A stretch of DNA of 38,233 nt, from the NCBI GenBank assembly GCA_021811105.1, contig JAJZPM010000005.1, positions 1 through 38,233 of the forward strand, in the 5' to 3' direction. Under the pieces are notes generated by a model that did no database searches, was not told the DNA's origin, and worked only from the letters and a program-made list of their open reading frames with translations. This DNA comes from Nitrospirota bacterium. GTDB lineage: Bacteria; Nitrospirota; Thermodesulfovibrionia; Thermodesulfovibrionales; UBA6898. Below, in pieces: positions 9,959-30,300 of this stretch. A program made the translations under genes and the position numbers. Position 1 is the stretch's first letter. Every line of letters starts with the position of its first letter.

Positions 9959-9989
9959 GATATGGAGTTATCCCAAGGAGACCTGCAAA

Positions 9990-11143: not shown

Positions 11144-12202
11144 ATGATACCGTATAAAAGGTTTACCGTTGTCCTCGGCGCGGTCCTGCTGGCGATGAGC
11201 GCAGCGGCCTGCGGCGGCCCCCAGGTCAAGCCCCAAACCGAGCTTGTCTGGCCCCTTCCGCCGGACCAGCCGAGGGTCAGGTTCGTCCAGACAACAAGCA
11301 AGCCCGGGGACCTCGGTCTCGGGCAGGGCTCGCTCTCCGAGGCGATCTTCGGGGAAGAGACCGAGTTCAACTTCAGAAAACCATTCGGCGTCGTCTCGGA
11401 CGGGGAAGGCCGCATCTTTGTTTCCGACATAGGCAGGGTGGTCGTATTCGACCAGGTCCGGAAGAAACTCTACGAATTCGGCACCATCGGGCAGGGCCAG
11501 CTGAGGGTGCCGATGGGACTTGCCGTTTCCTCCGACGGGACCCTGTTCGTGGCCGATATCACGCTCGACAAGGTCCTTGCATTCGACAGAAAGGGCAACG
11601 TGCTGATGACGTACGGCCATCCGGGGGACCTGACGAACCCCGTCGGGGTCGCCGTGGACGATGCGAGGAAAAGGCTCTACGTGGTGGATTCGAAGAAGCA
11701 CTGCGTGAAGGCCTATTCCAGGTCCGGGGAGTCCCTCTTCACGATCGGGCAGAGAGGAAAGGAAGAAGGCGCGTTTAATTTCCCCTCGGCGATCGCCCTC
11801 GACAGAGAGGGGGATATCTACGTCGCCGATATGGGCAATTTCAGGGTCCAGATCTTCGACAGCAACGGGAAGTTTATCAGGGCCTTCGGCCAGGTCGGCA
11901 GCGGGGGCGGGACATTCAACAGACCGAAGGGCATTGCGGTCGACTCGGAGGGGCATATCTACGTGAGCGACTCGTCCTTTAACAATATTCAGATCTTCGA
12001 CAAGAAAGGCCAGCTCCTCCTGTTCTTCGGCGGGACCGGCTCCGACCCCGGCTTTTTCACCCTGATAGAAGGCATTGCGATAGACAAGAACGACAGGATA
12101 TACGCCGTAGACCAGCTCGGCTATAGGCTCAATGTCTATCAATATCTGAGCGAACAGTACAGGAAGACGCATCCGGAAGCGGCTTCCGCCGAAGCGAAAT
12201 AA
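11144..12202 (+). CDS. NHL-repeat beta-propeller lipoprotein 2
   Basis: This 352-residue protein starts at ATG 11144, with GGAGG at 11132-11136. The signal peptide ends in SAAAC (C23), an atypical lipobox because position -3 is Ala rather than Leu. The VWPLPPDQPRVRF motif follows, matching NHL lipoprotein 1. At least five NHL units follow (for example EGAFNFPSAIALDREGDIYVAD), which fits a six-bladed propeller. It lies 77 bases after the 13-heme cytochrome and probably belongs to the same transcription unit. Similar propellers accompany extracellular cytochrome genes; a role in capture or maturation of the cytochrome is an inference. Confidence 0.9.
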   Translation: MIPYKRFTVVLGAVLLAMSAAACGGPQVKPQTELVWPLPPDQPRVRFVQTTSKPGDLGLGQGSLSEAIFGEETEFNFRKPFGVVSDGEGRIFVSDIGRVVVFDQVRKKLYEFGTIGQGQLRVPMGLAVSSDGTLFVADITLDKVLAFDRKGNVLMTYGHPGDLTNPVGVAVDDARKRLYVVDSKKHCVKAYSRSGESLFTIGQRGKEEGAFNFPSAIALDREGDIYVADMGNFRVQIFDSNGKFIRAFGQVGSGGGTFNRPKGIAVDSEGHIYVSDSSFNNIQIFDKKGQLLLFFGGTGSDPGFFTLIEGIAIDKNDRIYAVDQLGYRLNVYQYLSEQYRKTHPEAASAEAK

Positions 12203-14219: not shown

Positions 14220-14294
14220 ACTTTATGACAGAAGATTCATAAAAGCTGACAGTTTGTTAGCACAAATTTCTTACGGAAGGAGGTGAAAAGAAGA

Positions 14295-14981
14295 ATGAAG
14301 AAAGTCTTAATACTGGTAGTAGCACTTACCCTCGTGACGGCCGGCGTTGCGTTTGCGGGCATCGCAAACACCAAGCACAACCTGTCGACGACCAACCATC
14401 CGGCAACGAACACATATTTCTCGACCACTGAAGACGAGATCTGCGTGTTCTGCCATACGCCTCACGCGGCAACGGCGGTTCCTCTCTGGAACAGAAATAC
14501 GCCGGCGGGGCCTTTCACCGGCTACTCGTCGAACACGTTCAACGGCGGTACGATCGCTCTTGGAGCCGGCTCGCTTAACTGCATGAGCTGCCATGACGGC
14601 GTATCCGGTCTGAACGTTGTCATCAACGGAGTAGGCCCGGGCGCAGGCAGGGCGATCACGATGAATGCCAACGGCAACATCATCGGGGCGGGTCCGACCA
14701 ACCTCGGCACCGACCTTTCGAACGACCATCCGGTCGGCTTCGTGTATGCGACGTCTAAAGCTGCGGATACTGGCATCGCAGCCGACACGACGGCCCTTAA
14801 CGCGAACTGGATTAACGCCAGCGGCGCGACCACCATCGCGGGTCTCATGAGAAATACGCAGATGGAGTGCGCATCGTGCCACGAGCCTCACGTGGAGAAC
14901 ACCTATGATGCAACCAAGGTGTCCTTCCTGAGGAACGCAAACGCGGGCTCGAACATGTGCCTTACGTGCCACCTGAAGTAA
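14295..14981 (+). CDS. OmcE-like tetraheme extracellular cytochrome A
   Basis: This 228-residue protein starts at ATG 14295 behind a strong GGAGGT (14279-14284); a GTG at 14283 overlaps that site and is less likely. The Sec signal peptide is cut after AFA (residue 21). Four CXXCH motifs lie at C50, C96, C192 and C222. Four further His (H28 in KHNLS, H57 in CHTPH, H145 in NDHP, H199 in CHEPH) are conserved in all three paralogs and can be the distal ligands. Length, four hemes and the KHNLS/CVFCHTPH/PLWNR/CxSCHDG/DHPV order match OmcE, whose subunits polymerise into conductive extracellular filaments. It is monocistronic between a sigma-54-type promoter and a strong terminator. Confidence 0.92.
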   Translation: MKKVLILVVALTLVTAGVAFAGIANTKHNLSTTNHPATNTYFSTTEDEICVFCHTPHAATAVPLWNRNTPAGPFTGYSSNTFNGGTIALGAGSLNCMSCHDGVSGLNVVINGVGPGAGRAITMNANGNIIGAGPTNLGTDLSNDHPVGFVYATSKAADTGIAADTTALNANWINASGATTIAGLMRNTQMECASCHEPHVENTYDATKVSFLRNANAGSNMCLTCHLK

Positions 14982-15012
14982 TTTCCCTCCAAAAGGGAGA
15001 TTTTTTACACGC

Positions 15013-15041
15013 AAGGGGCGAGAGCAATCTCGCCCCTTTTT
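15013..15041 (+). terminator. Rho-independent terminator of cytochrome A
   Basis: AAGGGGCGAGA (15013-15023) pairs perfectly with TCTCGCCCCTT (15028-15038) around a GCAA loop and is followed by a T-run. A second, weaker hairpin (CTCC/GGAG followed by TTTTTT, about 14987-15006) lies just before it. Together they isolate the cytochrome A transcript from the convergent gene. Confidence 0.93.
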
Positions 15042-15066
15042 CTTGTGCGCCCGGCACGGAGCGGAA

Positions 15067-15963
15067 CTACTCTGATGCGCCCTTGACGCAGCGGAACCCC
15101 ACGCCGCTTTGGAGACTCCCGGGACTGCTGCTGTTCCGGTATGCGACCCTCAGAAAGGGCGCGGTATTGGCCCAGGATCCGCCCCTGATGACCTTTTGGA
15201 GGCCCGTTTCGGGCCCCCTGGGGTCTTTCGAGGGGGAGGACCTGCGGTAGTAGTCGCGGTCATACCAGTCGGAACACCACTCAGAGACATTCCCGGCCAT
15301 GTCGTATAGCCCATACCCGTTGGGGTAATAATTCCCGACCTTTCCTACAGGCGCCGGGTATGCATTGTTCTGCCATGACCGTTTGAAGATGACGCCACCC
15401 GTGGGGATTTCGTTCCCCCACGGATAGTCCTTTTTCGCTGGCCCGCCCCGGGCGGCCTTTTCCCATTCCGCCTCCGTCGGCAGCCTCTTGCCGGCCCAGC
15501 GACAGTAAGCATCGGCTGCGTACCAGCTCACGCTTAGAACCGGGTACCGCTCAAACCCCGGCACAGGTCTGTACGAGCCGCCGTCCCGCTCGATCTCCGT
15601 CGGCCACCAGTCGGCCTTTTCCTGCTTTTCGAGGTCGTTCCTTATAACGACCCATTTCTCCCTCTTTTCCTCGAAACCGGCCGAGTGTTTTTCCGCATCC
15701 AGGAATTCGGCGAACTCCTTGTTCGTAACTTCGTATTTGTCGATAAGGAAGGCGTCGAGGTATACCTCATGACGGGGGGTCTCTCCTTTCGGATAGGCTT
15801 CGAGCGGTTTGTTCTCGATCCGGGGACTTCCCATAAGAAAACTTCCGGCCGGGATGAGCACCATGCCTGCAGGTCTGTTCCGGCCGGCCCCGGCCGCCGC
15901 AGGCACATTCGCGAATGAAGCGACGGCAAACAGGAGTAGGGATAAAAGATAATTAAAGCGCAT
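15067..15963 (-). CDS. Secreted SUMF1-fold (formylglycine-enzyme-like) protein
   Basis: This is a 298-residue protein from the ATG at 15961-15963, with a signal peptide ending near AAAGA (residue 26). The SUMF1/FGE-sulfatase domain fills the rest: MVLIPAGSFLMGS, EVTNKEFAEFL, RLPTEAEWEKAARGG, GNVSEWCSDWY, RGGSW and the final GVGFRC. In true formylglycine-generating enzymes two Cys lie between RGGSW and GFRC and bind copper. Here that segment (ANTAPFLRVAYRNSSSPGS) has no Cys, so sulfatase activation is unlikely. Such secreted SUMF1-domain proteins are often binding or scaffold proteins. It is convergent with cytochrome A. Its role is unknown. Confidence 0.88.
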   Translation of the reverse strand: MRFNYLLSLLLFAVASFANVPAAAGAGRNRPAGMVLIPAGSFLMGSPRIENKPLEAYPKGETPRHEVYLDAFLIDKYEVTNKEFAEFLDAEKHSAGFEEKREKWVVIRNDLEKQEKADWWPTEIERDGGSYRPVPGFERYPVLSVSWYAADAYCRWAGKRLPTEAEWEKAARGGPAKKDYPWGNEIPTGGVIFKRSWQNNAYPAPVGKVGNYYPNGYGLYDMAGNVSEWCSDWYDRDYYRRSSPSKDPRGPETGLQKVIRGGSWANTAPFLRVAYRNSSSPGSLQSGVGFRCVKGASE

Positions 15964-16049
15964 GAAAGTTATTCTAAAAAAAATCTGCCGCAGTCTGCAA
16001 GGGGTTCGAATTTCTGGTAGTGGGTCAATATGCAATCATCTCAAATGCC

Positions 16050-16143
16050 GTCATACTCCGGCTTGACCGGAGTATCCAGAGAAGACTACTGGATTCCCCG
16101 ATCAAGTCGGGGAATGACAATCCTTAAGGACTGCGGGAATGAC
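16050..16143. repeat. GTCAT...ATGAC inverted-repeat element with two hairpins
   Basis: The element starts GTCATACTCCGG. It contains two internal palindromes, ACTCCGG-CTTGA-CCGGAGT and ATTCCCCGA-TCAAG-TCGGGGAAT. One ATGAC end is at 16118 and a second GCGGGAATGAC end is at 16143. It resembles the element at 731-825. Two nested copies are possible. Confidence 0.6.
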
Positions 16144-16412
16144 GAGCAGGAAAAGAAAGTCTACACGCAGATTCTCTCCAAGAGGCGTTGCATCGAGAAA
16201 CGCGGCACCCCTTACGCGGGCACGATAATTGAAAGAATAAGCATAGAATTTTATTCCGAATCCTGCCGCGTGTCAAGAAGACATTTAGAAGTCCGCTTCC
16301 TGAGGTGGGGCCATATGAGCCTTTTCCTGACGCTTTTAACTTCATTCTTCCGGGTATAGCTCACATTCCTGCAACAGACAAAAAAATCTTCTGAAACAAG
16401 AAACTCGACGCA

Positions 16413-16428
16413 TGGCACGGTAATTGAA
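16413..16428 (+). promoter_or_regulatory. Sigma-54-like promoter before the beta-barrel gene group
   Basis: TGGCACGGTAATTGAA has a perfect -24 block (TGGCACG) and the right spacing, but the -12 element reads TTGAA instead of TTGCA. It lies 220 bases before the first DUF1670-like gene and 47 bases before the possible mini-protein. The mismatch lowers confidence. Confidence 0.5.
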
Positions 16429-16474
16429 TCATTCCTGTTTGGACAAGGTTTTTTTGGGACGCGGCAGGGCTCAA

Positions 16475-16612
16475 ATGAGCTTGATTAAAGACAAATTACG
16501 GGATCGCCCTGAAAGGCCTGGGACATCGCGTGTGCGGCAAATAGCGCATTATTGCGTTAAATGGCTCTATTGGGGCGGTGTTATATGCGGTTTCATAGTG
16601 CCCGTTAGTTGA
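16475..16612 (+). CDS. Possible 45-residue membrane mini-protein
   Basis: The short reading frame starts at ATG 16475, with a basic, charged N-terminal half (KDKLRDRPERPG) and a hydrophobic C-terminal half (WLYWGGVICGFIVPVS) that could span a membrane. It lies just after the sigma-54-like site, and its TGA overlaps a possible TTG start of the next gene (TTGA at 16609-16612). That is the same coupling style seen elsewhere in the locus. No good ribosome binding site is visible, and the family is not recognised. It may be chance. Confidence 0.3.
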   Translation: MSLIKDKLRDRPERPGTSRVRQIAHYCVKWLYWGGVICGFIVPVS

Positions 16613-16632
16613 CAACGGAGGACATTCGAAAG

Positions 16633-16887
16633 ATGGAGTGCAGTCTGGTCTACTGGATGAGGGAGAGCCGGGAGAGGCTGAAGAGCCTCAAGTTCACCTA
16701 CTGCTGCGATAACGACCTCGCCGTTCTGAGCAGGTCCGGACTTGCGGAGTTGAGAAGACAAAAGGCTTTGAGGCTGATGGAGGAGGCGGAAAAGCAGGGG
16801 GCGACGCTTTCCTACAGGGACCTCAGCCTGATCCTGCTCACTTCCAGATCTACTCTGAAGCGGGACATGAGGAACAGGGAGCGGTAA
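16633..16887 (+). CDS. Small HTH protein, DUF1670-like N-terminal region (first)
   Basis: This 84-residue protein starts at ATG 16633, with GGAGG at 16617-16621; a TTG at 16609 would add 8 residues. The core (RRQKALRLMEEAEKQGATLSY, then DLSLILLTSRSTLKRD) looks like a helix-turn-helix unit. It resembles the N-terminal part of DUF1670 proteins, which are normally longer. It is paralogous to the next gene (shared EQG..L.Y.DLS..L.TS..TLKRD). No signal peptide is seen, so it is likely cytoplasmic and DNA-binding. Two such genes run straight into the beta-barrel gene, so local regulation of that gene is a reasonable guess. Confidence 0.65.
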   Translation: MECSLVYWMRESRERLKSLKFTYCCDNDLAVLSRSGLAELRRQKALRLMEEAEKQGATLSYRDLSLILLTSRSTLKRDMRNRER

Positions 16888-16891
16888 ACGG

Positions 16892-17251
16892 GTGGAATTC
16901 GGCAAAGTCGAATACAGATGCGTTGTTCAGAAGAACGGAAAACCTTTCTTCAGGACGTTGCATCTCACCCTGATCGGACTTGAGGACAAGAAGCTGCTCT
17001 CCAAAAAGGGGGTAAGGGCGCTGAGACTCAACAGGATCATGAGGCTTACGGCCGAGGCGATGGAACAGGGCTGTCCTCTCGGATACGAAGACCTTTCGAA
17101 TCTTCTTATGACCTCGCTTGCGACTCTCAAAAGGGACGTTACGTATCTCGAATCCCAGGACACGAAGGTCCTCATAAGGGGCAGGAGAAACGGGAGAAAA
17201 AGCCCGGATGCGGCCATTTTCTGCCATGCCGCGAAGGAAGTCGGCGCATGA
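16892..17251 (+). CDS. Small HTH protein, DUF1670-like N-terminal region (second)
   Basis: This 119-residue protein starts at GTG 16892, with GGGAG about 10 bases upstream. Residues 40-85 repeat the helix-turn-helix core of the preceding protein (AMEQGCPLGYEDLSNLLMTSLATLKRD), followed by a strand-rich tail (DTKVLIRGRRNGRK). It starts 4 bases after the previous stop. Its own stop overlaps the ATG of the beta-barrel gene (ATGA), so production is probably coupled to the barrel. The C-terminal half usual for DUF1670 is missing. The pair may be a split regulator or two monomers of a heterodimer. Function is inferred. Confidence 0.68.
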   Translation: MEFGKVEYRCVVQKNGKPFFRTLHLTLIGLEDKKLLSKKGVRALRLNRIMRLTAEAMEQGCPLGYEDLSNLLMTSLATLKRDVTYLESQDTKVLIRGRRNGRKSPDAAIFCHAAKEVGA

Positions 17252-19356
17252 GAGAATCTCTGCGGAAAACTGCGGGAGGAGGAAGCGGTACCGTCATTCG
17301 CCGTCTCGTCTCTTTTGTCCTGGTGCTCGCCGGATTTGTTGTTCCTTTATTTTTCGCAGTCCGCGGCGCCGAGGCGAAGAGGGGCAGCGACCTCCCCAGA
17401 CAATACATCCTGACCGGCGTGGTAGGCCTCGAATACGAAAGGCGCTGGGGGACCGCCTCGGGTTCCGATTTGGACCCTATATCGTCTTTTACCCAGAGCT
17501 ATTCTCTCGGGGTGCGCGGACCTATTATCGATCCCCGCCTTGCCATATTCAACGTGAAGGGAGATTTTATCGACAAGTCTGGCAGGGAAGGTTACCGTAC
17601 CAAAGGGTTTTCGGTCGAGCTGGATTTGCTGAACGAGATGCGGGAGATAAAGAGCCCCAAGTACAATTTCCTCAACTATATGCCGAAGCCGATTATCCTG
17701 CGATATTCTTTCTATTCCGGCGACGATTATACCAACACCAATTACGGGTTCAGCATGTCCTATTACCTGCCGGTCTACTTCCACTTCTTCAGCGACGGCA
17801 AGTTCGTGAGCGTCAAAAGCAATAGCGAATTGCCGGGCCGGCTGAAGTTCAACCAGCTTAGCAACAACATTAATAACAGGAACGGCAATGGTAACGGTAA
17901 CGGTAATGGCAATGGCAATGGCAATGGCAATGGCAATGGCAATGGCAATGGCAATGGCAATGGCAATGGCAATGGCAATGGCAATGGCAATGGCAATGGC
18001 AATGGCAATGGTAACGGTAATGGTAACGATTCACAGAATAATAATCAGAACGATAACCAAAACCAGAATCAGAACCAAAACCAGCAATATCGATATATCG
18101 AGCCCTCCGGCGTCATCGTTCCCTTTCCCTTCTTCTCCGTTGATTACGACAAAAATATTTACAAGTCCGGCGGCGACGAGACAGACATGACGCAGTTCGA
18201 CACCAGGGCCCATTTCTTGGGCCAAAAATACCGGTACAGCTTCGATTACAGCAACACCACCACGGATAGTTCCAAAGGTCTGAACAACAGCCGCGACCGG
18301 AAGTTTACCGTCGATACATGGAATTTGATCCGCGGCTTCGAGCTTCAGAATCTGGCCGAGATCGAATCCCTCGACAATACTTCCTCGGTGAGGGTGAACT
18401 CCCGGGCAACGTCCCGTTTCAGCAAGGGGCCGAATACCGAGTTTTTCATTAACCTGGGCGGGGACTACCAGAAGACCGGGGACTTCGCCGTATACTCGTT
18501 GAACGGGACCGGGACGATGCAGTACAAAATAAACCCGGCATTGCTGACGCTTACGACCGCAGGCGCCGGGTTCCAGCATTCCAATAACTCTCCTTCTACC
18601 GATCCCTTTGCGCCGATCGATCCGAACCGGAACCCCCTGCTGGGCGAGCCGAAATCGACCGAGTACAGCCTGACTCTTGCGGAGACGCTTCAGTATAGCG
18701 GCATTAAGAACGTGGTGCTCCAGGGAGGGGCCTCTCTGGGCGTTGCCAGCGGCGGGATACCTTACGCGGTCTTTGGCGGCTTTACGGCCTCCCCGCTCAA
18801 GTGGCTGTCATTCAACGGAAACTACTCCTACAACGTGACGTTCATAAACGGAGAGGACACGCAGTCGAGCCATGATATGCGCTTCGGCGCGGTCGCCTAT
18901 ATCATGAACGGCCTGAACGTTGAGGTACAGGGTGACCGCCAGACCACGAACGTGCATGACGATATTTCCTACGACGTGACCTATGACCGCCTGGACTTCA
19001 GGCTCAACTGGTTTTACCGGAGCCAGAGCCTCAATGTCAACGGCTATATCGCCCGGAACGAAAGCACGAATCCGGGCCTGGGTCTTGGCACGGGGAGAAG
19101 CAGTCTTTGGGGATACGGGGTCCAGTACGGGGCCTCTCTGATGAGGAACCTTTCCCTCGTAGTGAGATATAACTATGATAAGGACCGGGACTCTGACACG
19201 ACCCGGTCACAACTGAATCCGCGGCTTGTCTGGTATTACGGGAAGGTGGTGCTTACTGCAGAGTACAGGGAGGACAAAAACGAGGAACTGGGCGCAAGCA
19301 GGACCGACCGCAGGATCTACGTCAGCCTCATGAGGTATTTCCGGAAGAGATTGTGA
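17248..19356 (+). CDS. Outer-membrane beta-barrel protein with Asn-Gly repeat loop
   Basis: This is a 702-residue protein with a signal peptide ending at AEA (residue 43). The rest has the alternating-hydrophobic, aromatic-ended strands of an outer-membrane barrel (for example WLSFNGNYSYNVTF, LVVRYNYDKDRD, VVLTAEYREDK). Residues 212-261 contain 24 consecutive Asn-Gly dipeptides followed by an Asn/Gln-rich stretch, so a flexible loop of about 75 residues divides the chain. Barrels of this kind occur next to OmcS/OmcE-type cytochromes and in porin-cytochrome conduits. Here it could be the conduit sheath or the export pore for filament subunits. The C-terminal residue is Leu rather than the usual Phe. 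It is translationally coupled to the DUF1670-like gene. Confidence 0.85.
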   Translation: MRESLRKTAGGGSGTVIRRLVSFVLVLAGFVVPLFFAVRGAEAKRGSDLPRQYILTGVVGLEYERRWGTASGSDLDPISSFTQSYSLGVRGPIIDPRLAIFNVKGDFIDKSGREGYRTKGFSVELDLLNEMREIKSPKYNFLNYMPKPIILRYSFYSGDDYTNTNYGFSMSYYLPVYFHFFSDGKFVSVKSNSELPGRLKFNQLSNNINNRNGNGNGNGNGNGNGNGNGNGNGNGNGNGNGNGNGNGNGNGNGNGNGNGNDSQNNNQNDNQNQNQNQNQQYRYIEPSGVIVPFPFFSVDYDKNIYKSGGDETDMTQFDTRAHFLGQKYRYSFDYSNTTTDSSKGLNNSRDRKFTVDTWNLIRGFELQNLAEIESLDNTSSVRVNSRATSRFSKGPNTEFFINLGGDYQKTGDFAVYSLNGTGTMQYKINPALLTLTTAGAGFQHSNNSPSTDPFAPIDPNRNPLLGEPKSTEYSLTLAETLQYSGIKNVVLQGGASLGVASGGIPYAVFGGFTASPLKWLSFNGNYSYNVTFINGEDTQSSHDMRFGAVAYIMNGLNVEVQGDRQTTNVHDDISYDVTYDRLDFRLNWFYRSQSLNVNGYIARNESTNPGLGLGTGRSSLWGYGVQYGASLMRNLSLVVRYNYDKDRDSDTTRSQLNPRLVWYYGKVVLTAEYREDKNEELGASRTDRRIYVSLMRYFRKRL
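17881..18030 (+). repeat. In-frame hexanucleotide tandem repeat (AATGGC)n
   Basis: There are 17 perfect AATGGC copies (17905-18006), flanked by degenerate AACGGT/AATGGT copies on both sides, giving 24 Asn-Gly dipeptides in the beta-barrel protein. Because the unit is 6 bases, gain or loss of copies changes loop length without a frameshift. The perfect core with degenerate edges is typical of recent slipped-strand expansion. Confidence 0.95.
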
Positions 19357-19369
19357 TGTATGAACATAG

Positions 19370-19520
19370 AAAAAGCAGTTAACCACAGAGACTCAGAGGC
19401 ACAGAGTTGAAAGAAGAGAGAAAACTCCTGAATGTACCAATCACCTCGATGGTGACACGAAATTTTCCGGCAAACCGTTGTTTTCTCTGTGTCTCCGTGG
19501 TAAATGATCTGCCTTTTTTA
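19370..19520. repeat. MITE-like element, complete copy 2
   Basis: The element is about 150 bases with imperfect terminal inverted repeats: AAAAAGCAGTTAACCACAGA at the left, and the complement of AAAAAGGCAG...ACCACGGAGACAC at the right. It lies in inverted orientation relative to 1-120, between the barrel gene and the PpiC gene. It has no ORF. It separates two likely operons and may affect read-through. Confidence 0.8.
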
Positions 19521-19552
19521 GGATGAATGAATATGTACGGAGGTGTGAGAAG

Positions 19553-20572
19553 ATGTATCGGGCAGTAAAGATGTTCCAGGCAATTCTTTGGGTGATCATG
19601 ATCGTGTTCGTTCCCGCTACGGCTGTGCAGGCTGAAGAGGTCGGCTCCGATGCGGTGATCGCACGCGTGAACGGCGTAGGCCTGACCGAGGGCCAGATCG
19701 AAAGGGTATTGGACGAGATGATCCCGCGCGCCTTTTTCCACGGCAACATCACCCGCGATAAAAGGGCTGAATACAGACCGAAGGCCTTTGAAGAGCTGAT
19801 AAAGAGGGAGCTCTATTATCAGGAGGCGAAAAGGACCGGCATTGAGGTGACGGCTGCCGATATCGACAAGACCGTGAAAGAAATAGAAGAGGGCTACAAA
19901 CCGCAGGGCGGCCTGGAAAAGGTGATGAAGGCCGGCGGCTTTACGATGGAGACGCTGAGGAAAGCGATCGCGCGTGACCTGACGATAAACAGGTTCGCCG
20001 AGCGCGAAATCAGTGCGAAGGCGAAGGTCTCGGATGAATTCCTGCGGCAGTATTATGAACAACACAAGGCCGAATTCCTGAGGCCGGAGGCGGTGAGACT
20101 GAGAATGGTCTCGATTTTCGTCGACCCGGCGGCCACCAAAGAGGAACGGGCTGAGAAAAAAAAGCATGCCGAAGAGATACTGGCGAAGTCGAAGGCCGGC
20201 GAAGACTTTGCGGACCTTGCCGCCAAGTACTCCAACGACGACTGGCGTGTGAAGGGCGGCGACTTCGGGATCAGACACCGGGGCCAGTTCGACCCCGAGA
20301 TAGAAAAGGCCGCTTTTGCGCTGAAGCCCGGAGAGATAAGCGGGCTCGTCGAGACGATCTACGGCTATCATTTCATAAAACTCGAGGAGAGGCTCCCACG
20401 GACCCAGCTGTCGTTTGAGGAGATGAAGGACAAGCTCCGGAAAAAACTCGAAGACGACCGCACGAAGGAACTCGCCGAGTCTCTCCTGAAGAGGCTGAAG
20501 GAGAATGCGAAGATCGAGATCGTGGCGGAGATGAACAAGCCTGCCGTCCCTGCGCAGAACGGCGCGAAGTGA
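19553..20572 (+). CDS. PpiC/SurA-type periplasmic peptidyl-prolyl isomerase
   Basis: This is a 339-residue protein. ATG 19553 is chosen because GGAGGTG (19539-19545) precedes it; the ATG at 19523 would add 10 residues. The signal peptide ends at VQA (27). A SurA-N-like chaperone region (about 35-175: INRFAEREI, DEFLRQYYEQHKAEF) is followed by a parvulin domain (about 180-280: RMVSIFVDP, ILAKSKAGEDFADLAAKYS, GGDFG, GYHFIKLEE) and a charged helical tail. Parvulins speed X-Pro isomerisation and chaperone exported proteins. A PpiC gene is a recognised neighbour of OmcS/OmcE-type nanowire genes, where it is thought to aid subunit folding or polymerisation. Here it leads NHL protein 3 and cytochrome B. 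Confidence 0.93.
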   Translation: MYRAVKMFQAILWVIMIVFVPATAVQAEEVGSDAVIARVNGVGLTEGQIERVLDEMIPRAFFHGNITRDKRAEYRPKAFEELIKRELYYQEAKRTGIEVTAADIDKTVKEIEEGYKPQGGLEKVMKAGGFTMETLRKAIARDLTINRFAEREISAKAKVSDEFLRQYYEQHKAEFLRPEAVRLRMVSIFVDPAATKEERAEKKKHAEEILAKSKAGEDFADLAAKYSNDDWRVKGGDFGIRHRGQFDPEIEKAAFALKPGEISGLVETIYGYHFIKLEERLPRTQLSFEEMKDKLRKKLEDDRTKELAESLLKRLKENAKIEIVAEMNKPAVPAQNGAK

Positions 20573-21624
20573 TGACCCCGAAACTGAAATTATGCGGATG
20601 GAAAGGTTGGGCACTGGTGGCTGCGGCGTTCTTGACGGCATCATGCGCTCCCGCATACAAGGCGCGCTTCGACATGACATCCTCCCGGGGGATCGTTTGG
20701 CCGGGCAAACCGGAAAAGCCGCGCGTAGTCTATCTCTGGAGCCTGCAGGACGTCGCCGGCGAGCAGGGAAAAGGCGGTCTTCTCGCCGCCGCAGCCGGCG
20801 AAGAGGAGGTATCCGACCCGCAAAGATCGCCGGTTCTTCTCAGGCCGCAGGGGGTCTACGCCGACGAAGAGAGGCTGTATGTCGCCGATCCGGGGGCGGG
20901 CAGGGTGACCGTGGTCGACCGGAAGACTATGGACGTGATGCAGATACTCGATACGGATACGGTGAGTCTTTCATATCCCCTGAGTGTCGTGGCCTCGCAG
21001 GACGGTACCATCTTCGTGTCCGACGCCGACCTCGGAAAGGTGATCGCCTATTCCCCGGGCGGCAAATTCCTGCGCTATTTCGAGGGCGAGATACAGCGGC
21101 CCGCCGGGCTCGCGATCGACAGGCGGCGGGGCATCGTTTATGTCGTCGACACGATGGGCCATACGGTATACCGGTACGGGACCGACGGAAAGAGGCTCGG
21201 CAGCATCGGCCGGAGGGGTGAAGGCGACGGGGAGTTCAATTATCCGACGTATGCCTTCGCCGACCGAAAGGGGCAGCTGTACGTGACCGATTTCCTTAAT
21301 TTCAGGGTCCAGATGTTTCATCCGGACGGTACGTTTGCGGGCAAGCTCGGACTTCAGGGGGACAGCTACGACGCGCTGGACAAGCCGAAAGGCGTTGCCG
21401 CCGACAGCGAAGGAAACATATATATAGTGGACGACGGCAAGGACATGGTAAAGATATTCGATCGTGAGGGCAGGCTGCTCCTTTTCTTCGGCGGCACCGG
21501 ACACGGGTATGGCGATTTTTACCTGCCGACTGGTATATTTATCGATGACAAAAACATGATCTATGTCGCCGATACGGTGAACATGAGGATACAGGCGTTT
21601 CAATTATTGGGCGGCAATCAGTGA
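20572..21624 (+). CDS. NHL-repeat beta-propeller lipoprotein 3
   Basis: This is a 350-residue protein from the ATG at 20572, overlapping the PpiC stop (a GTG at 20569 would add one residue). The lipobox is LTASC (C25). The VWPGKPEKPRVVY motif corresponds to the WPLPP..PR..F motif of the other two NHL lipoproteins, and NHL units continue to the C-terminus (for example GDGEFNYPTYAFADRKGQLYVTD). An insert of about 30 residues (AGEQGKGGLLAAAAGEEE) precedes the first blade, which the others lack. It is co-transcribed with the PpiC and OmcE-like B genes and probably works with them at the envelope. Confidence 0.9.
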   Translation: MTPKLKLCGWKGWALVAAAFLTASCAPAYKARFDMTSSRGIVWPGKPEKPRVVYLWSLQDVAGEQGKGGLLAAAAGEEEVSDPQRSPVLLRPQGVYADEERLYVADPGAGRVTVVDRKTMDVMQILDTDTVSLSYPLSVVASQDGTIFVSDADLGKVIAYSPGGKFLRYFEGEIQRPAGLAIDRRRGIVYVVDTMGHTVYRYGTDGKRLGSIGRRGEGDGEFNYPTYAFADRKGQLYVTDFLNFRVQMFHPDGTFAGKLGLQGDSYDALDKPKGVAADSEGNIYIVDDGKDMVKIFDREGRLLLFFGGTGHGYGDFYLPTGIFIDDKNMIYVADTVNMRIQAFQLLGGNQ

Positions 21625-21638
21625 CGGAGGTTTGACGT

Positions 21639-22439
21639 ATGAGAAACAGGCTTTACGCCGTAGTGATCGCATTGTTCTCTTGCGCGCTGCTCCTTGTTGC
21701 GGGTAATTCCTTCTCGCAGGGCATCGGGAATCTGCAGACGGCGGGGAATAAACATAATCTTTCGATAAGCGGTACGGGGTCGATCAAGGCCCTTACGGAG
21801 ACCAGGCTATGCGTGTTTTGCCACACGCCGCACAGGGCATACCCGGGGACGCCGCTCTGGAACCATACCATGTCGGCGGCGTCCTATACCGTCTCGACTC
21901 CGCCGGGCGTCACCGGGACGCAGCTCTCTACGCCCCAGAATCCGCCCGACGGCGATTCCAAGCTCTGCCTGAGCTGCCACGACGGCACGGTCCCCATAGG
22001 CGCGGTGCAGAATATAGACAGCCACTCAGCCACGATAGCGATGACCGGGACGCTGCCGGCCGTCGGTAACGGCTCGACGAACCTCGGCACCAATCTGAGC
22101 GGCCACCACCTCGTTTCGATAGAGTATAACCAGGCGCTGAAAAATGCGAAGGACCTGCAGTGTCCCTCCATAGGGTATTCCCTGCTGAGCCCCGGCGCGA
22201 CGCCGGCCGCGTATCTACGGGAGACGAATAATTCATATGCGGGCGGGGCCACGCAGAAGGGCGTCCAGTGCTCTTCCTGCCATGACCCGCATTACGATCC
22301 GATACCGGGCACGACCAAATTCCTGCGCGGCGCAGCGGGCGCGCCCACTCCGCAGCCTACGTACCCCCCGCCGACGCAATGGGTCTATGGAGATAATCTC
22401 TGTCTTGCCTGTCATTGCCTGTGCGGGTCATGTCCGTAA
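21639..22439 (+). CDS. OmcE-like tetraheme extracellular cytochrome B
   Basis: This 266-residue protein has GGAGG about 10 bases before ATG 21639 and a signal peptide ending near FSQ (27). CXXCH motifs start at C58, C110, C211 and C255. The conserved non-motif His are H39 (KHNLS), H65 (CHTPH), H157 (GHHL, where the paralogs have DHP) and H218 (CHDPH). The order of motifs is the same as in cytochromes A and C. It differs in having an extra Cys at 175 and a C-terminus CHCLCGSCP after the last heme, with three extra Cys; paralogs stop two residues after the last CH. It lies 14 bases after NHL lipoprotein 3, downstream of PpiC. It is a likely filament subunit, or a variant that caps or anchors one. 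Confidence 0.9.
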   Translation: MRNRLYAVVIALFSCALLLVAGNSFSQGIGNLQTAGNKHNLSISGTGSIKALTETRLCVFCHTPHRAYPGTPLWNHTMSAASYTVSTPPGVTGTQLSTPQNPPDGDSKLCLSCHDGTVPIGAVQNIDSHSATIAMTGTLPAVGNGSTNLGTNLSGHHLVSIEYNQALKNAKDLQCPSIGYSLLSPGATPAAYLRETNNSYAGGATQKGVQCSSCHDPHYDPIPGTTKFLRGAAGAPTPQPTYPPPTQWVYGDNLCLACHCLCGSCP

Positions 22440-22498
22440 CGATATGGAATGCGGGCGTGGGGGGCGGAGAAGGTGAAGGAATATAAAAGGAATCAACA

Positions 22499-23611
22499 AT
22501 GAGGAATGGAGAATACAGAATGAAATTCCTTAAGATGCGTATCGATACAGGCATGAAATATGCCGGCGCCGGCCTTGTTCTTCTGCTGTTCCTGGCCGTT
22601 TCCTCCGTCTGCCTGGGGGCCCAACTCTCGATTGTCCAGCCCACCCATACTGACAGGTCGAAGAACCCCTTCGGCTGCGCGGGGTGCCACAAGGGGCACG
22701 GCAAGACCGGGACCGCGATGCTCGCTTCATCCAAGAATCAGATATGCTTCACCTGCCACGGGTTTTCGGTTGCGGCAGGGAAAATGAAGGCGAAGGACGA
22801 CATGGAGAGCGTATTCCGGAAACGTTACCGGCATCCAGTCCTCGAAACCTCACAGTACCACCGGCCGGACGAGCAGTTCCCGGAAAAAAATCCGTCGGTT
22901 CCCCGCCATGTCGCCTGTCAGGACTGTCACGTGGTCCATGTATCGACGCAGGATAATCCTCTTGCGGGCGTACAGGGATATGCGAGAGGGGTGGTGCGCG
23001 ACATTGAGCCGGGCAAGAAATATATGCTCTGCTACAAGTGCCATTCGGACAGCGCGAATCTGCCTTCCACCTCGACGAACAAGGCGCTTGAATTCGACAC
23101 CGGCAACGCTTCTTACCACCCCGTGGAGGGGCGCGGGAAAAACCCTTCGGTCCCGAGCCTCATCAGTCCGCTGAATTCAAGCTCCACCATCACATGTACC
23201 GACTGCCACGGCAATGACGACAAATACGGCCCCGCGGGACCGCACGGTTCGAATTACGAGTTCATTCTGAAGGCGGAATATCTGCAGACGGAGTCGGCGG
23301 AGTCGGCCAAGGCGTATGAGCTCTGTTATTCCTGCCACGACCGCCGGAGCATTCTCGGCAACGTCAGCTTCCAGAAGCACAAGGAGCATATTGTCTATAA
23401 CCGCGTTCCCTGCTCCGCGTGCCATACCCCCCACGGTTCGAGGAGAAACCCTCACCTGATCGAATTCGATACGATATTCGTAGGGATCGGCCAGCTGCCC
23501 AACTATGCGCCGTCTTCCGATGGCAGGCCGGTCTGCCTTTTGAGATGCCACATAGGCAACAGGGATGTCGTCCATGACAATGCATTCTATGCGGCGAAGA
23601 GATGGCCCTAA
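22499..23611 (+). CDS. Exported multiheme cytochrome: seven CXXCH plus one CX3CH
   Basis: This is a 370-residue protein; an ATG at 22520 with GGAG 8 bases upstream is an equally good start (363 residues). A signal peptide ends near CLGA. Seven CXXCH motifs are seen (CAGCH, CFTCH, CQDCH, CYKCH, CTDCH, CYSCH, CSACH), plus C-LLR-CH near the C-terminus (bases 23534-23551), a possible eighth site with three spacer residues. His-rich segments such as KHKEH supply distal ligands. The size and heme number suit a periplasmic or surface electron carrier linked to cytochrome B, 59 bases upstream. No lipobox or membrane anchor is seen. Confidence 0.9.
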   Translation: MRNGEYRMKFLKMRIDTGMKYAGAGLVLLLFLAVSSVCLGAQLSIVQPTHTDRSKNPFGCAGCHKGHGKTGTAMLASSKNQICFTCHGFSVAAGKMKAKDDMESVFRKRYRHPVLETSQYHRPDEQFPEKNPSVPRHVACQDCHVVHVSTQDNPLAGVQGYARGVVRDIEPGKKYMLCYKCHSDSANLPSTSTNKALEFDTGNASYHPVEGRGKNPSVPSLISPLNSSSTITCTDCHGNDDKYGPAGPHGSNYEFILKAEYLQTESAESAKAYELCYSCHDRRSILGNVSFQKHKEHIVYNRVPCSACHTPHGSRRNPHLIEFDTIFVGIGQLPNYAPSSDGRPVCLLRCHIGNRDVVHDNAFYAAKRWP

Positions 23612-23636
23612 AAGCGCGACAAGCCCCCTTTTCCCC

Positions 23637-23653
23637 GGTTAACTGCTTTTTAT
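23637..23653. repeat. Fragment of the MITE-like repeat end
   Basis: GGTTAACTGCTTTTTA equals the terminal part of the elements at 1-120 and 19370-19520. Only the end is present, just upstream of a sigma-54-type promoter. Confidence 0.5.
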
Positions 23654-23679
23654 AGGTTCATTCAGTCGGTGATTACAAT

Positions 23680-23695
23680 TGGCATAGACATTGCA
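23680..23695 (+). promoter_or_regulatory. Sigma-54-type (-24/-12) promoter
   Basis: TGGCATAGACATTGCA has the correct 10-base gap between GG and GC. It differs from the site before cytochrome A (14204-14219) at only three positions, all in the non-conserved spacer. It lies 56 bases before the GTG of cytochrome C and is probably the promoter for the 23751-36217 gene set. Confidence 0.8.
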
Positions 23696-23750
23696 TTTTT
23701 GATAGTAATTTTTTGCAACCAGAAGAAGCTAAAACGGATAGGAGGTTTAA

Positions 23751-24554
23751 GTGCGTAATAAATATATTATTTTTGGCTTCATATCAACGCTGATTGTTGT
23801 GGTATTTCTCGCACTTGATGCGCGATATGCCGCAGCTACCGTCGTGGGAGGAAAGCACGATCTTTCCTTTTCTGGAAGCGCCAACTTCCAGTATGCCACT
23901 GACGAGCCGTGCATCTTCTGTCATACCCCTCACGCTGCAAACGTAAATACCGTCTATTCGACCGACCCTGCAAGCTCATCGAACACGGGATCGGGCAACA
24001 GCGCCCCCGGCGGACAGTTCCTCTGGAACAGGGCACTGCCCCAGCGCACCTGGAACGTCTATTCGAGCTCGACCCTGAATGCCAATACCAGCGGCGGCCC
24101 TGGCACCCTGTCTCTGCTCTGCCTCAGTTGCCATGACGGCGTCGGGGCGATGAACGTGCTCCTTAATTATGCGAGTGGCCAGCCTGCTTCGATGGGCTTT
24201 CTCCAGAACCAGTTCGGCGATTTCAGCACGAGTGATCCGAATATCGGGCCTTTGAACATCGGGGGCGGGCAATGCGACGGCGGCGCCGGCACCGGATGTG
24301 TAGGAGGAGGAGGGGACCTCCAGAACGACCACCCGATCGGGTTTGTGTACGATAACGCGCTTGCGACGGCCGACGGCGGCCTTAATCCCCCCGCCAGCCT
24401 CAATACGGCCCTGAAGAGCAGGATGACCGTCACCGGAAACAGGATGGAATGCTCCACCTGCCATGATCCGCATATTACGAACCTTGGCGGAAACGCCTTC
24501 CTGGTCATGAGCAATACCGGCAGTGCACTTTGCCTGCAGTGCCACAACAAATAA
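23751..24554 (+). CDS. OmcE-like tetraheme extracellular cytochrome C
   Basis: This 267-residue protein starts at GTG 23751, with AGGAGGT at 23740-23746. A signal peptide ends near residue 29. CXXCH motifs start at C54, C124, C234 and C261. The whole protein contains exactly eight His: four in the motifs and four others (H36 in KHDLS, H61 in CHTPH, H194 in NDHP, H241 in CHDPH), which is just enough for bis-His ligation of four hemes. An extra Cys pair, C175 and C183 in a Gly-rich loop, could form a disulfide. The motif order matches OmcE. It heads the group with the giant cytochromes under a sigma-54-type promoter. Confidence 0.92.
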   Translation: MRNKYIIFGFISTLIVVVFLALDARYAAATVVGGKHDLSFSGSANFQYATDEPCIFCHTPHAANVNTVYSTDPASSSNTGSGNSAPGGQFLWNRALPQRTWNVYSSSTLNANTSGGPGTLSLLCLSCHDGVGAMNVLLNYASGQPASMGFLQNQFGDFSTSDPNIGPLNIGGGQCDGGAGTGCVGGGGDLQNDHPIGFVYDNALATADGGLNPPASLNTALKSRMTVTGNRMECSTCHDPHITNLGGNAFLVMSNTGSALCLQCHNK

Positions 24555-24605: not shown

Positions 24606-27323
24606 ATGGCTACAAATATGAGGGGGAAAACGGCAGTCCTATTGACATCAGTAGTTATGACGGTCATATTTCTCGTCCCGATGCAGGCTCAGGGGGCGAC
24701 TGCGCCAGCCGTGACGAGGCTGCTGACGATACCCGACCAGAGCTTTGCTGGTAAGGTCATCTCCGACTCCAATGGCAATATCTATGTTGCGGACATTTTT
24801 TATAAGACGGTCAGAATTTATGACTCAAGCGGCCAATTCAAAAAGAGCATCGGCCTTTCTTATGTACCTGCCGCAATAGCACTTTCTCCCGACAACCTCC
24901 TCTACGTCGGGGAAGACGCACAGGACGGCCATTACTATATTGATGTCTATACCTTAAGCGGTGCGAAGGTCAGGACGATGGCCGCTACGGGCCCTGCTGC
25001 CATGGCCTTCCTGAGCACCGGAGAACTCTACTTAGTCGACGGATACAAGGTCAGGAAATTCAACGCCTCTATGGCCCAGATGATGGAATTCGGCGGGTAC
25101 ACAATGTTCCGTGATCCTTCCTCGATCGCCGTCAACGAGCAAAAAGGCGAGCTGTATATCCTCGACATGGGTGGCGTGGGGACGGAAGGCTCCTATACGA
25201 ATACCCCGGTATGGAGGGTCCAGGCATTCGACCTGAACGGCACTCTGCTGAGAAGCTTTTCGAGTTATGGCTACGGAGCGGACGGGATGGTCGGATCTGC
25301 TTCCGCCGTCGCCGTCGACAAGGACGGCAGAATTTATGTGTCGGACAACGTGCAGCCGATCATCGCGGTCTTCGATGAAAACGGCGCATACCTGAAGACT
25401 ATCTTCGATACGACAAATCCCCTCACCAATCCTGCGAATATCTCTTACAGGAACGACAGGCTCTACATGGCTTCGCTGGCGGGCAATTTCGTCACGGCCT
25501 TTGGAATAGACGCATACGGCCTTTTGGAAGTGACGCCCCCTGTTATCGATACGAAATGGCAGAGCGGCATGCCTGCCCCCGCAAAGCTGCTTTCTCTTTC
25601 AAACAAGGGGACAGGTCCGCTTACCTGGCAGGCGACAGTGGACGCCGCAAGTTCCTCCTGGCTTTCGGTTTCCCAAGTCTCCGGAACGCTGGCCGCGAAT
25701 TCTGCGCAGGATGTAACGGTCGCAATAAATACGACGGGCTTTACTGCGGGACAGACGCATACCGGCTCGATCGATATCACCTCCAACGGAGGTTCTCAGG
25801 CGGTCGCGGTCAAAGTGACCGTGGCCGATCAGCCCATATTGACGGTGAACCCTTCTGTGATCACGGTGACCCGTAAGTCGAACGAAAAGACTAACCCGAT
25901 GCCTCTGAATATCACGATCGGTAATGACATAAGCGGCGGCTTGCTGACCTGGCATGCGGCGGCCGTATCCGATACGGGGTGGCTCGGCATGAACCCGACC
26001 GAGGGGACGAGCGGTCTCGCCTCGGCGCCTCTTGTTACGTTTGCGGACGCAGTCGCGCCCGGTACATACGGCGGAAGCATCACTGTGACGCTGGAAGGCG
26101 CGGCAGGCAGCCCCGTGACCGTACCGGTTACGCTCGAGGTCGTCTCGGCGAACCGGATTGTGGTTACAACAAACACGGCGGAGGCCTCCTTTACGGTAGA
26201 CGGCCCGGACGGCGCCACCTTCAGCGGCACGGGAGAGAGCTATACCGCGGACAGCGTCGCCCCCGGCTCCTATACCATTACGTACAAGAGTGTGCCCGGA
26301 TTCAAGACGCCGCCATCCGAAACGAAGAGCATTGGCATTGGTGAAGATGCTACATTCGTCGGCACGTACACCGACTTGAGACAAAGAATGAACATCGTGG
26401 CCAGCCACGGTTTCCGCAAGAACGAGTCGAACGAAGTGGCGATATTCAAGGGAGACGGAACCTTCGTCACCAGCTTTGTGCCTGCCCTGCCTTATTCCTA
26501 CGGGGTAAGCACGACTGTCGGCGATGTGGACGGCGATGGCGTTATGGATATCGTGGTGGGCGGTGCGCCTTCGATTGTCAAGGGATATAAGCGCGACGGC
26601 AGCCCGATCTCAGGACTTGAATTCTCGGCATTCGAAACGCCGCGACGCAGCAGCGTCGGCGGCATTAATCTCTCCACTGCGGACTTCGACGGCGACGGCA
26701 GGGACGAGATCATAACAGGCGACGCGAAGAACTCGAGCGTCGTGCGGGTCTTTTCCTTTGGCGGCACTTCGGTCACCGACACCGGTCTCTACATAGAACC
26801 GTTCAAAGACCTCGGCGAGGGTGTAAACGCGGTCGGCGCCGACGTGGACGGCGACGGATCGCCGGAACTGATTGTACTTCAGGCCGACAGCGACGTTGTC
26901 CCGGAAGTGAAGATTTACAAGGTGAATACGGCGGCAGGAGCCGGGCGCTGGACAGCCGATATGAGCGGCCGCTTCAAGGTCTGCAGCAGGCCGGTGGAAA
27001 CCGGTCTGGCCGCGGCTGACGTGGACGGAGACGGCGTTGCGGACATTATCGTGATGTGCAAAGGCGACAGGACCTCGGAAGTGCGCGAGTTCAACGGCAG
27101 CGGAAATCTCATCGCCAGCTTCACGGCGGCGGCAGATGCGGGTTCAGTAGCAGCGGGCGACACCAACTTCGACGCTGTGGCCGAGATCATATTGGGAGAC
27201 GCAGCATCGACCGGCGGCAAAATGTTCAACATACTCAAGTCTCAGGGCTCGACGTTGAATACAGTACCGGCTTTTACAAAGAGTTATGGCGTGAGAGTAT
27301 CCGTCGGTAATTTGGGTTATTAG
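24606..27323 (+). CDS. Secreted NHL / BACON-like / PEGA-like / FG-GAP multidomain protein
   Basis: This is a 905-residue protein; ATG 24606 follows AGGAGGAG. A signal peptide ends near AQG (31). Residues 35-300 are an NHL-type propeller (DSNGNIYVAD, DKDGRIYVSD). Residues about 310-510 are two BACON-like Ig domains (GPLTWQATV, SWLSVSQVSGTL; GWLGMNPTEGT). Residues 515-590 are PEGA-like (TVDGPDGATFSGTG, YTITYKSVPGF). Residues 600-905 are FG-GAP/VCBS propeller repeats with calcium loops (DVDGDGVMD, DFDGDGRDE, DVDGDGSPE, DVDGDGVAD). No heme motif or lipobox is present. It sits between OmcE-like C and the giant cytochrome, so it may be an extracellular scaffold or adhesion partner for them. Confidence 0.88.
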   Translation: MATNMRGKTAVLLTSVVMTVIFLVPMQAQGATAPAVTRLLTIPDQSFAGKVISDSNGNIYVADIFYKTVRIYDSSGQFKKSIGLSYVPAAIALSPDNLLYVGEDAQDGHYYIDVYTLSGAKVRTMAATGPAAMAFLSTGELYLVDGYKVRKFNASMAQMMEFGGYTMFRDPSSIAVNEQKGELYILDMGGVGTEGSYTNTPVWRVQAFDLNGTLLRSFSSYGYGADGMVGSASAVAVDKDGRIYVSDNVQPIIAVFDENGAYLKTIFDTTNPLTNPANISYRNDRLYMASLAGNFVTAFGIDAYGLLEVTPPVIDTKWQSGMPAPAKLLSLSNKGTGPLTWQATVDAASSSWLSVSQVSGTLAANSAQDVTVAINTTGFTAGQTHTGSIDITSNGGSQAVAVKVTVADQPILTVNPSVITVTRKSNEKTNPMPLNITIGNDISGGLLTWHAAAVSDTGWLGMNPTEGTSGLASAPLVTFADAVAPGTYGGSITVTLEGAAGSPVTVPVTLEVVSANRIVVTTNTAEASFTVDGPDGATFSGTGESYTADSVAPGSYTITYKSVPGFKTPPSETKSIGIGEDATFVGTYTDLRQRMNIVASHGFRKNESNEVAIFKGDGTFVTSFVPALPYSYGVSTTVGDVDGDGVMDIVVGGAPSIVKGYKRDGSPISGLEFSAFETPRRSSVGGINLSTADFDGDGRDEIITGDAKNSSVVRVFSFGGTSVTDTGLYIEPFKDLGEGVNAVGADVDGDGSPELIVLQADSDVVPEVKIYKVNTAAGAGRWTADMSGRFKVCSRPVETGLAAADVDGDGVADIIVMCKGDRTSEVREFNGSGNLIASFTAAADAGSVAAGDTNFDAVAEIILGDAASTGGKMFNILKSQGSTLNTVPAFTKSYGVRVSVGNLGY

Positions 27324-27332: not shown

Positions 27333-30300
27333 ATGCAAATGGCAAAGAAATTAATAATTCTTGTTGCAATCGCTGCGTTGTTGATACCCGCAATGGGTTG
27401 GTCGCTTGACGCTCCGCATACGAATATTCCCGGGTATGGTATCGACTGCGGCAGCTGTCACTGGACCAATAGTTCCGCAACACCCCCATGGGAGAATGCG
27501 CAAGTGCCCGATGCCCCTGACAATACGATCAACAACAGAAGATGCTATGCATGCCATGACGGCAACAAGCCTCTGACGCCTGCGGCAAAGACCCATTCTA
27601 CTTCTACAACTTCGAATACATATTGGACAACGCAGGGCGGGTGGAAGACCGAGTGCGTGACCTGTCATAACCCCCATCAGCAGAGACAGACAAGGGTGTG
27701 GGGCTCTGCCAGCTATGTGACGCAGGGTACGGCCCCCCAAAGCGTAGTGGTCGACACCGTCAATAACGTATCGACGATTACTCTGCCGGCCAGTCTCGGG
27801 CCCAATTACTTCGGCTATTATATCCTGCCTGACATTCGATATCCTTTTTACTACGAGATCACGAACGACACAACCAATACCGCAGCCGTGACGGTTAAGG
27901 GACAGGTCAACAAGACCTATGTCGGCACAGGCGGCTATGCGATCGTCTATGCAAGAAACGTCAAGGAATCCATCACCTATATAAACCCAGCTAATCAGCC
28001 AGTCGGCGGCTCGGTAAAATTGTTCGGCCCCTCGGGAGTGAATGGACCGGCTGACCCCGTGGCGACGGGCGTCTGTTACGTCTGCCATACGCAGACGAAC
28101 CATTACAGCTCGAAGACGGGTGCGGACTCTACCCATCATGCCGGCGAAGTCTGCACCAGTTGCCATGCGCATCTTCAGGGCTTCAAGCCTGCCTGCGACG
28201 GCTGCCACGGCAATCCGCCGACTGTCTCGAGCCAAACCCCTCCCAACGGTCTCGTTTGGGTCACTCTGCAGGGAGGTTCCGGAACGGGAACAGGCTCGAC
28301 TACCGCAGGCGCCCACGGCACCCATGTCAATTCAAAGTCTATTTCCTGCGACGCCTGCCATCTGAACAGCGTCGGAACAGGCGCTACGCATAACGCCGGC
28401 AGCGTAACACTCGGATTCAAGGGCTTCGGCGGCTCCAGCGGGGGCGGGGCATATAACGGCCAGTCGGGTGTCACCTACAATGCAACTGTGACTACACCGG
28501 CGACGAGCGCATCCAGCGGCGGCCTGAAGCAGTGCAGCAACGTCTACTGTCATGGCGCGACGATGGCGACAAACAACGGTACCAACCGGGCTCCCACCTG
28601 GGACAATGCGGCCACCGGCGCGTGCGGGACCTGCCACGGCGCTGACTCGGCAAACCCGCCGCAACTGGGCAGTCATGACAGACATACAAGCGCTTCGACG
28701 GGCTACTCTTTCACGTGCACGCTTTGTCACAACAATGCTGCCGGCACTCATGTAAACGGCAAAGTCGAGTGGGCTTTCAACACCGCCGACACAAGGACGA
28801 ACGGCGGCAAATACAACAGCGCAGCCAGCGGGTCTACAAATGCCCCGGCGCCGAGCGGGACGTATCAATCCTGTTCGAATCTCTATTGCCACAGCTCGGG
28901 CGAGGCAGCGCCTTCTACCTATGCAACGCCCGCCTGGGGCAATGCTTCAACCGGCGCATGCGGCACCTGCCACGGAACCGTGGCGGCTGCCCCTCCTGCA
29001 TCCGTGCCCCATACCAAGCACGTGGGTACCGCGGCCGCCTATCAATTCTCCTGCTCCAAGTGCCATAACACTACCGTGACCGCGACTGCGGATTCGACGG
29101 TCCAGCCTTCTATTGCAGACAAGACCCTTCATGTAAACGGCAACCGCGACGTCAGCTTCGATGCCTTCAATAGCGGCGGAAGCTACAACGGAACGAACTG
29201 CAGCAACATCTATTGCCACAGCCAGGGCACGGGCGGCACGGGACAGACCGGCGATACGCGTCCGATTGCAGCCCCTGCCACTGCGCCGACGTGGACTACC
29301 GGAAGCATAAATTGCGGCTCCTGCCACGGCGGGGACAGCACCGGCCGGCCGGCATATGTCAGCGGCACGCCGAAGGCAAACAGCCATATGCTTACGACCC
29401 ACTCGCAAAAAACGTGCGACCTTTGCCACAATCAGACGACTACGACTGGCAACACAATAACAAACCCAGCAAAGCACGTCAACAAAACATACGACATTAC
29501 TACCAGCTTTAACTACAGCTATGCTGCAGACGGCGGAACATGCTCGACGACGTACTGCCACGGCTCCTCGACGATCAAGTGGGGGGCGTCCGGTACGCTC
29601 ACCTGCGATTCCTGCCATTCCGGGCAGGGTGCGGGCACTGCGGTGACGAAGGGCTATACGACGGCGCACAGCACAAAGCACACGCAAAGCTACCTGCTCG
29701 CCTGCGAGAACTGTCATACTCAGCTGAACTCGAACACTGCCAACCGCATCAGCCATGCAGGCGGAGACGTGAACCCGTCTACTCCGCAGACCGCGGAAGT
29801 GAAGTTCACCGATCAGAGCGGCTCGACGCAGTACGGCGGAGGCGGCTCCACCTTCCGCTATTCGAACCTGTATGCGAACCCTTACGGTGTCGTGGCGCCG
29901 ACGCCGGTATATACTCCGGGCCTGACTTCGGCCGGTTCCGATCCGAAAAATGCGTTGATCACCTGGACGGCCGGCAGCTGCTCGAACGTATGGTGTCACT
30001 CCAATGCCAATCCCGCGGGCGGGACGAACTCATATTCCAGCCCTGCATGGAACAGCGTAATCGATTGTGGTTCGTGCCACCGCAAACCCGACACGGCGGC
30101 CAACATGGCGGCGGCCGGAACGCCCGAGAAGATGAGCGTTTCGCACGTGAAACATATCGCGACCGACCAGTACGGACAGAATACTAACTTCACCTGCAAT
30201 ACTTGTCACAGTAATACGGCTTCGGACAGCTCGACGATCTCTAATACCGCTAACCATGTAAACGGCGCGAAAGATGTTGCGCTGAACGCCTGGGCCGGCG

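Follow-up and report, generated by a model that had tools for sequence, protein, structure and literature searches.

A Uet-like locus with three OmcE-type tetrahaem cytochrome paralogs in a member of the Nitrospirota

The stretch of DNA analysed here (38,233 nucleotides of contig JAJZPM010000005.1 from Nitrospirota assembly GCA_021811105.1, hereafter the window) encodes three tetrahaem cytochromes, A, B, and C, whose membership in the OmcE family is supported and which, judged by phylogeny and gene order, are ancient paralogs, each within its own conserved module (Table 1). With moderate confidence, we read the window as a Uet-type locus in which A would be a filament subunit, B and an adjacent octahaem cytochrome (Oct) would together form a conduit or dock equivalent to a split UetJ, and C would act either as an adaptor or as the subunit of a second filament. 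The parts of this reading with direct support are the homology, the conservation of haem ligands, the predicted fold of A, synteny, the fusion link between B and Oct, the similarity between Oct and MtrA, and the pattern in which a single histidine is lost.

Table 1. Coordinates of the genes and haem-ligand residues discussed in the text
Feature	Coordinates	Strand	Description	Basis
Dec	9954..11066	+	13-CXXCH cytochrome, module of A	
NHL2	11144..12202	+	NHL-repeat lipoprotein, partner gene of A in relatives	synteny
Cytochrome A	14295..14981	+	tetrahaem cytochrome of OmcE type with Sec signal peptide; probable filament subunit	7tfs homology, AF2 model, synteny
A, His of CVFCHTPH	14463..14465	+	OmcE precursor H58, putative inter-subunit ligand	sequence, loss pattern
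UetC-position protein	17248..19356	+	candidate outer-membrane barrel, (Asn-Gly)n stretch	iterated HMM family
PPIase	19523..20572	+	SurA/PpiC-type peptidyl-prolyl isomerase, UetB position	Pfam Rotamase and SurA_N
NHL3	20569..21624	+	NHL-repeat lipoprotein, directly upstream of B	synteny
Cytochrome B	21639..22439	+	OmcE-type domain of split UetJ, with HH motif and a C-terminal Cys tail, CHCLCGSCP	homology, clade, tail
B, His	21831..21833	+	equivalent to OmcE H58	sequence, alignment
Oct	22499..23611	+	MtrA-like octahaem cytochrome, other half of split UetJ	HMM, profile, AF2 model
Cytochrome C	23751..24554	+	tetrahaem OmcE-type paralog in a lineage-specific clade; insertions follow TPH and precede DH	homology, clade
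C, His	23931..23933	+	equivalent to OmcE H58	sequence, alignment
NHL/BACON/FG-GAP protein	24606..27323	+	downstream of C	synteny
Giant cytochrome	27333..33290	+	1985 aa, 35 CXXCH	

The three cytochromes and their haem ligands

An earlier note on this DNA had picked out three tetrahaem cytochrome ORFs and described them as OmcE-like. All three are present, with four CXXCH motifs each, and homology searches bear out the likeness. By phmmer against the PDB, A, B, and C match OmcE of Geobacter sulfurreducens, a tetrahaem filament (PDB 7tfs), with E values of 8.8e-40, 3e-19, and 3.4e-16, a similarity far beyond chance; the alignment of A spans residues 5–232 of 232 (full length). A second solved OmcE homolog, a putative multihaem cytochrome c with 16 chains (PDB 9yuq), is matched at 8.1e-27, 2.2e-14, and 3.8e-20, respectively, and C is the protein closest to it. 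An AlphaFold2 model of A (pLDDT 81.8, pTM 0.77), built from 94 window and locus sequences, resembles 7tfs in Foldseek (E 4.2e-15, TM 0.62/0.69), and this single-chain model superposes on OmcE in VIA-align with a Z of 15.2 and an rmsd of 2.7 Å over 178 residues. Membership in the OmcE family is supported for A by sequence and predicted fold, and for B and C by sequence. Searched with A as the query (E < 1e-6), the host genome (3.94 Mb, 93 contigs) contains only A, B, and C as OmcE-like genes. The best start of A is the ATG at 14295, with AGGAGG ahead of it.

The proteins also share the ordered motif set that the note had listed. Eight ligand-type histidines, those of KH, CxFCH-TPH, CxSCH, (D/H)H, CxxCH-xPH, and CxxCH, are invariant in an alignment of A, B, C, OmcE 7tfs, and 9yuq, with HH in B where A and C carry DH. 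Counted in the translations, the histidines number nine in A, eleven in B, and exactly eight in C; four of the eight in C lie in CXXCH, and the alignment agrees with the note that the other four are conserved in A and B. The histidine of TPH corresponds to H58 of the OmcE precursor (His61 in A when numbered from the GTG at 14283), and both it and the PLWN motif are kept in all three proteins. By dN/dS against one same-genus genome (0.16 for A, 0.09 for B, and 0.07 for C), A, B, and C are all under purifying selection. At their C-terminal ends, A and C finish in CH-x-K, and B and most of its split orthologs carry an extra Cys tail beyond the last CXXCH, often ...C..CP.

A, B, and C thus share with OmcE four CXXCH motifs and eight conserved histidines in the same order, and A also shares its fold. 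Unlike in OmcE, three ancient paralogs occur in one locus; B appears to belong to a conduit, and C carries large insertions.

Ancient paralogs in separate modules

A recent local triplication yielding A, B, and C is ruled out, as the AU test rejects the three as a single clade (p-AU 5e-9). A grouping of A with OmcE and 9yuq is neither supported nor rejected (p-AU 0.27), and C forms its own clade in the maximum-likelihood tree (support 99/95). Gene order within the host's taxonomic order is conserved in three modules, namely Dec-NHL2-A, barrel candidate-PPIase-NHL3-B-Oct, and C-NHL/FG-GAP-giant cytochrome, in which the PPIase, NHL, and cytochrome parts were assigned by Pfam.

The module of A has a parallel among genomes of the Geothermobacter class, which carry OmcE orthologs at 53–63% identity; G. 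sulfurreducens itself was not among the matches of this class-level search. In all four of these genomes whose flanks were inspected, the order is Dec-Dec-NHL2-OmcE. Because Dec and NHL2 precede the OmcE orthologs there as they precede A in the window, A is the counterpart of OmcE by synteny too.

Further large cytochromes and variants of the family occur in the window and in other loci. A second large cytochrome of 950 aa with 8 CXXCH lies at 33365-36217 of the window. In two other loci (L052 and L095), an OmcE-like gene stands immediately ahead of cytochromes of 2754 and 3297 aa with 57 and 54 CXXCH, and the OmcE-like proteins of L140, L143, L144, L146, L149, and L182 contain five CXXCH, not four. 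On the minus strand of the window, two TPR-ended membrane proteins (5028-6770 and 12225-14144) lie amid the extracellular electron transfer genes, the first of which shows a weak PMT_2 match. Glycosylation has been reported for the filaments of both OmcE and OmcS (PMC9473688), and a link of the two TPR-ended proteins to this modification is possible.

Cytochrome B, Oct, and the Uet complex

The undecahaem electron transfer (Uet) complex, UetA-J, occurs in Tenderiales and Gallionella and, as described in PMC10734462, which cites Eddie et al. 2022, comprises the undecahaem UetJ, the extracellular tetrahaem UetA, the trihaem UetDEG, the PPIase UetB, the NHL proteins UetHI, and the barrel UetC. 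A tetrahaem OmcE-like gene, a PPIase, NHL genes, and a UetJ-type protein in split form occur together in the window; UetA, UetB, UetHI, and UetJ are each matched in both content and position, and the barrel candidate is the putative counterpart of UetC. The window differs from Uet in lacking a single-chain undecahaem UetJ, B and Oct being separate ORFs, and in adding paralog C and the giant-cytochrome module; no genes recognisable as the trihaem UetDEG were found in it. On a Candidatus Tenderia contig (L054), an A-like gene, a PPIase, a 620-aa protein, and a trihaem gene follow one another in this order. Iterating an HMM from the barrel candidate recovers members of its family in most loci, often right after the PPIase and near OmcE-like genes. 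The match in gene set, the Tenderia gene order, and the position of the barrel-candidate family beside the PPIase together indicate that the window is a Uet-like locus with a split UetJ. The UetC-position protein itself is a barrel candidate for which searches of the PDB and Pfam detected no porin homology (low-complexity matches only) and whose amphipathicity (z 1.2) is not significant. Its (Asn-Gly)n stretch is long, and an N-rich region is kept in the family profile.

The relationship between B and Oct is visible in fusion proteins. In many phyla, including Bacteroidota, Calditrichota, Planctomycetota, Nitrospirota, Gammaproteobacteria, and others, the OmcE domain is fused to about 320 more residues with seven or so additional CXXCH, a form that matches the published undecahaem UetJ. 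An HMM built on 20 split Oct proteins matches the C-terminal part of these fusions at up to 313 bits, over residues 55-357 of Oct. Seven of the haem motifs of Oct, whose start may be the ATG at 22520, are CXXCH and one is a conserved CX3CH (CLLRCH), which is found in 20/20 split Oct proteins and falls within the HMM match to the fusions. In the maximum-likelihood tree, the split B genes and the OmcE-Oct fusions group into a clade of 46 with no other members (support 99/97). In the loci of relatives, the B-type gene adjoins Oct or is fused with it, with an NHL gene before. Since B falls in a clade of OmcE domains fused to or adjoining an MtrA-like octahaem protein, it is more likely to serve in a conduit than as a free subunit of a filament, and membership in the conduit is its most likely role.

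Both the profile and the predicted fold of Oct point to similarity with MtrA, a component of the Mtr conduit (PDB 6r2q chain A). The Oct profile matches MtrA with an E value of 6.7e-10 and aligns in order with its residues 149-333. By Foldseek alone, the AlphaFold2 model of Oct (pLDDT 82.5, pTM 0.82) gave no significant match; MtrA surfaced in a second look with VIA-align, at a Z of 7.9 over 165 residues, which is middling according to the tool's note, with the next chain at 2.6. Unlike MtrA, Oct has eight haems, including that of the CX3CH motif, and has an OmcE-type domain as its partner; nothing homologous to MtrB or MtrC was detected beside it. The N-terminal side of MtrA is periplasmic; as B comes before Oct, it could therefore face the periplasm and not the outside.

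These observations bear on the earlier note's suggestion that the locus may encode three different filament subunits, of which the family assignment holds for all three proteins and the equivalence does not: B belongs to the clade of fused or adjacent octahaem proteins, and C to a separate module with an NHL/FG-GAP protein and a giant cytochrome. In its fullest form, with A, B, and C as three homopolymeric filament subunits used under different conditions, this suggestion appears unlikely to us. Retention of the full ligand set in all three, including H58 and PLWN, would suit it, as would the purifying selection on each and the production of three distinct cytochrome filaments by G. sulfurreducens (PMC12307469). 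However, phylogeny and synteny make B the equivalent of the N-terminal domain of UetJ-like fusions, and homopolymerisation through both ends is unlikely for a domain within a larger chain; moreover, a different module surrounds each paralog.

A putative inter-subunit histidine and a possible division of labour

Across 230 OmcE-like domains, the histidines of KH, DH, and xPH are present in 228, 230, and 228, respectively, the four gaps at KH and xPH being sequences cut by contig ends; hence the distal histidines equivalent to OmcE H31, H149, and H208 are never substituted. The TPH histidine, H58, is kept in 213 of the 230 domains and substituted in 17. These losses amount to about five changes on the tree, a modest number, and all 17 loci contain, in addition, a paralog with H58 intact. 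Copies without H58 tend to lack L66 and N68 of PLWN as well. In the tree, every B sequence, whether fused or split, retains H58. Betaproteobacterial H58-less paralogs (L041:7536-8579, with similar copies in L051, L057, L061, L068-L070, L089, L091, L108, and L113) each lie upstream of an H58-keeping copy.

One of the twelve axial ligands of OmcS comes from a neighbouring molecule (PMC6584659), and inter-subunit coordination is common to OmcE and OmcS, although the OmcS filament, unlike that of OmcE, is hexahaem and its subunit has no sequence similarity to OmcE (PMC9473688). Loss of just one of the four distal histidines, always beside a paralog that keeps it, fits an inter-subunit ligand and suggests end-capping subunits. 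From this pattern we infer that H58 is the ligand shared between subunits, and paralogs without it could end a filament.

Two further readings seem improbable to us, each somewhat more so than that of three separate filaments. Many tetrahaem cytochromes act as monomeric carriers, and A, B, and C might likewise be monomers of the periplasm or surface with all bis-His ligation within the chain, but A shares its fold and ligand set with a protein solved as a filament, and recurrent loss of one distal histidine while the other three are never substituted is hard to explain if that histidine ligates a haem of its own chain. Alternatively, A, B, and C might alternate in one filament or form segments of it through a shared His-haem joint, the chemistry of which is identical in the three co-located genes, but the paralogs are very diverged (36–43% pairwise identity) with different partners, and all cytochrome nanowires found to date are homopolymers (PMC11936953).

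The division of labour that we favour would instead give three ancient OmcE-type paralogs separate jobs in a Uet-type extracellular electron transfer locus. A, as the counterpart of OmcE, probably polymerises head-to-tail, most likely as OmcE does; each chain would ligate three of its own haems, and one haem would take its distal histidine, that of CxFCHTP-H, from the neighbouring subunit. B and the adjacent Oct would be the split form of undecahaem UetJ, in which Oct may act as an MtrA-like wire crossing the outer membrane with the barrel candidate, and B as its OmcE-type docking domain, presenting the same joint of histidine and acceptor haem to the terminal subunit of the filament formed by A. 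The third paralog, C, tied to the giant-cytochrome module, would serve as an adaptor or else build a second filament. Polymerisation, the choice of the histidine that crosses the interface, docking, location, and direction are the parts of this scheme that we infer.

A more tentative extension, possible but in our view rather doubtful, is that the UetJ-type OmcE domain represented by B anchors nanowires to the outer-membrane conduit through the His-haem joint of the filament, and that the H58-less paralogs are end caps. If so, the start and the stop of a filament would be written in one residue.

The anchoring of cytochrome nanowires to the cell has been described as still speculative (PMC12307469). 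In the papers covered here, OmcE nanowires and the Uet conduit have so far been kept apart, and no link is drawn between the undecahaem UetJ and OmcE. Should the OmcE-type domain found in UetJ serve for docking, these two published systems would become one, and the roles proposed for the three paralogs hint at how nanowires of this kind may begin and terminate.
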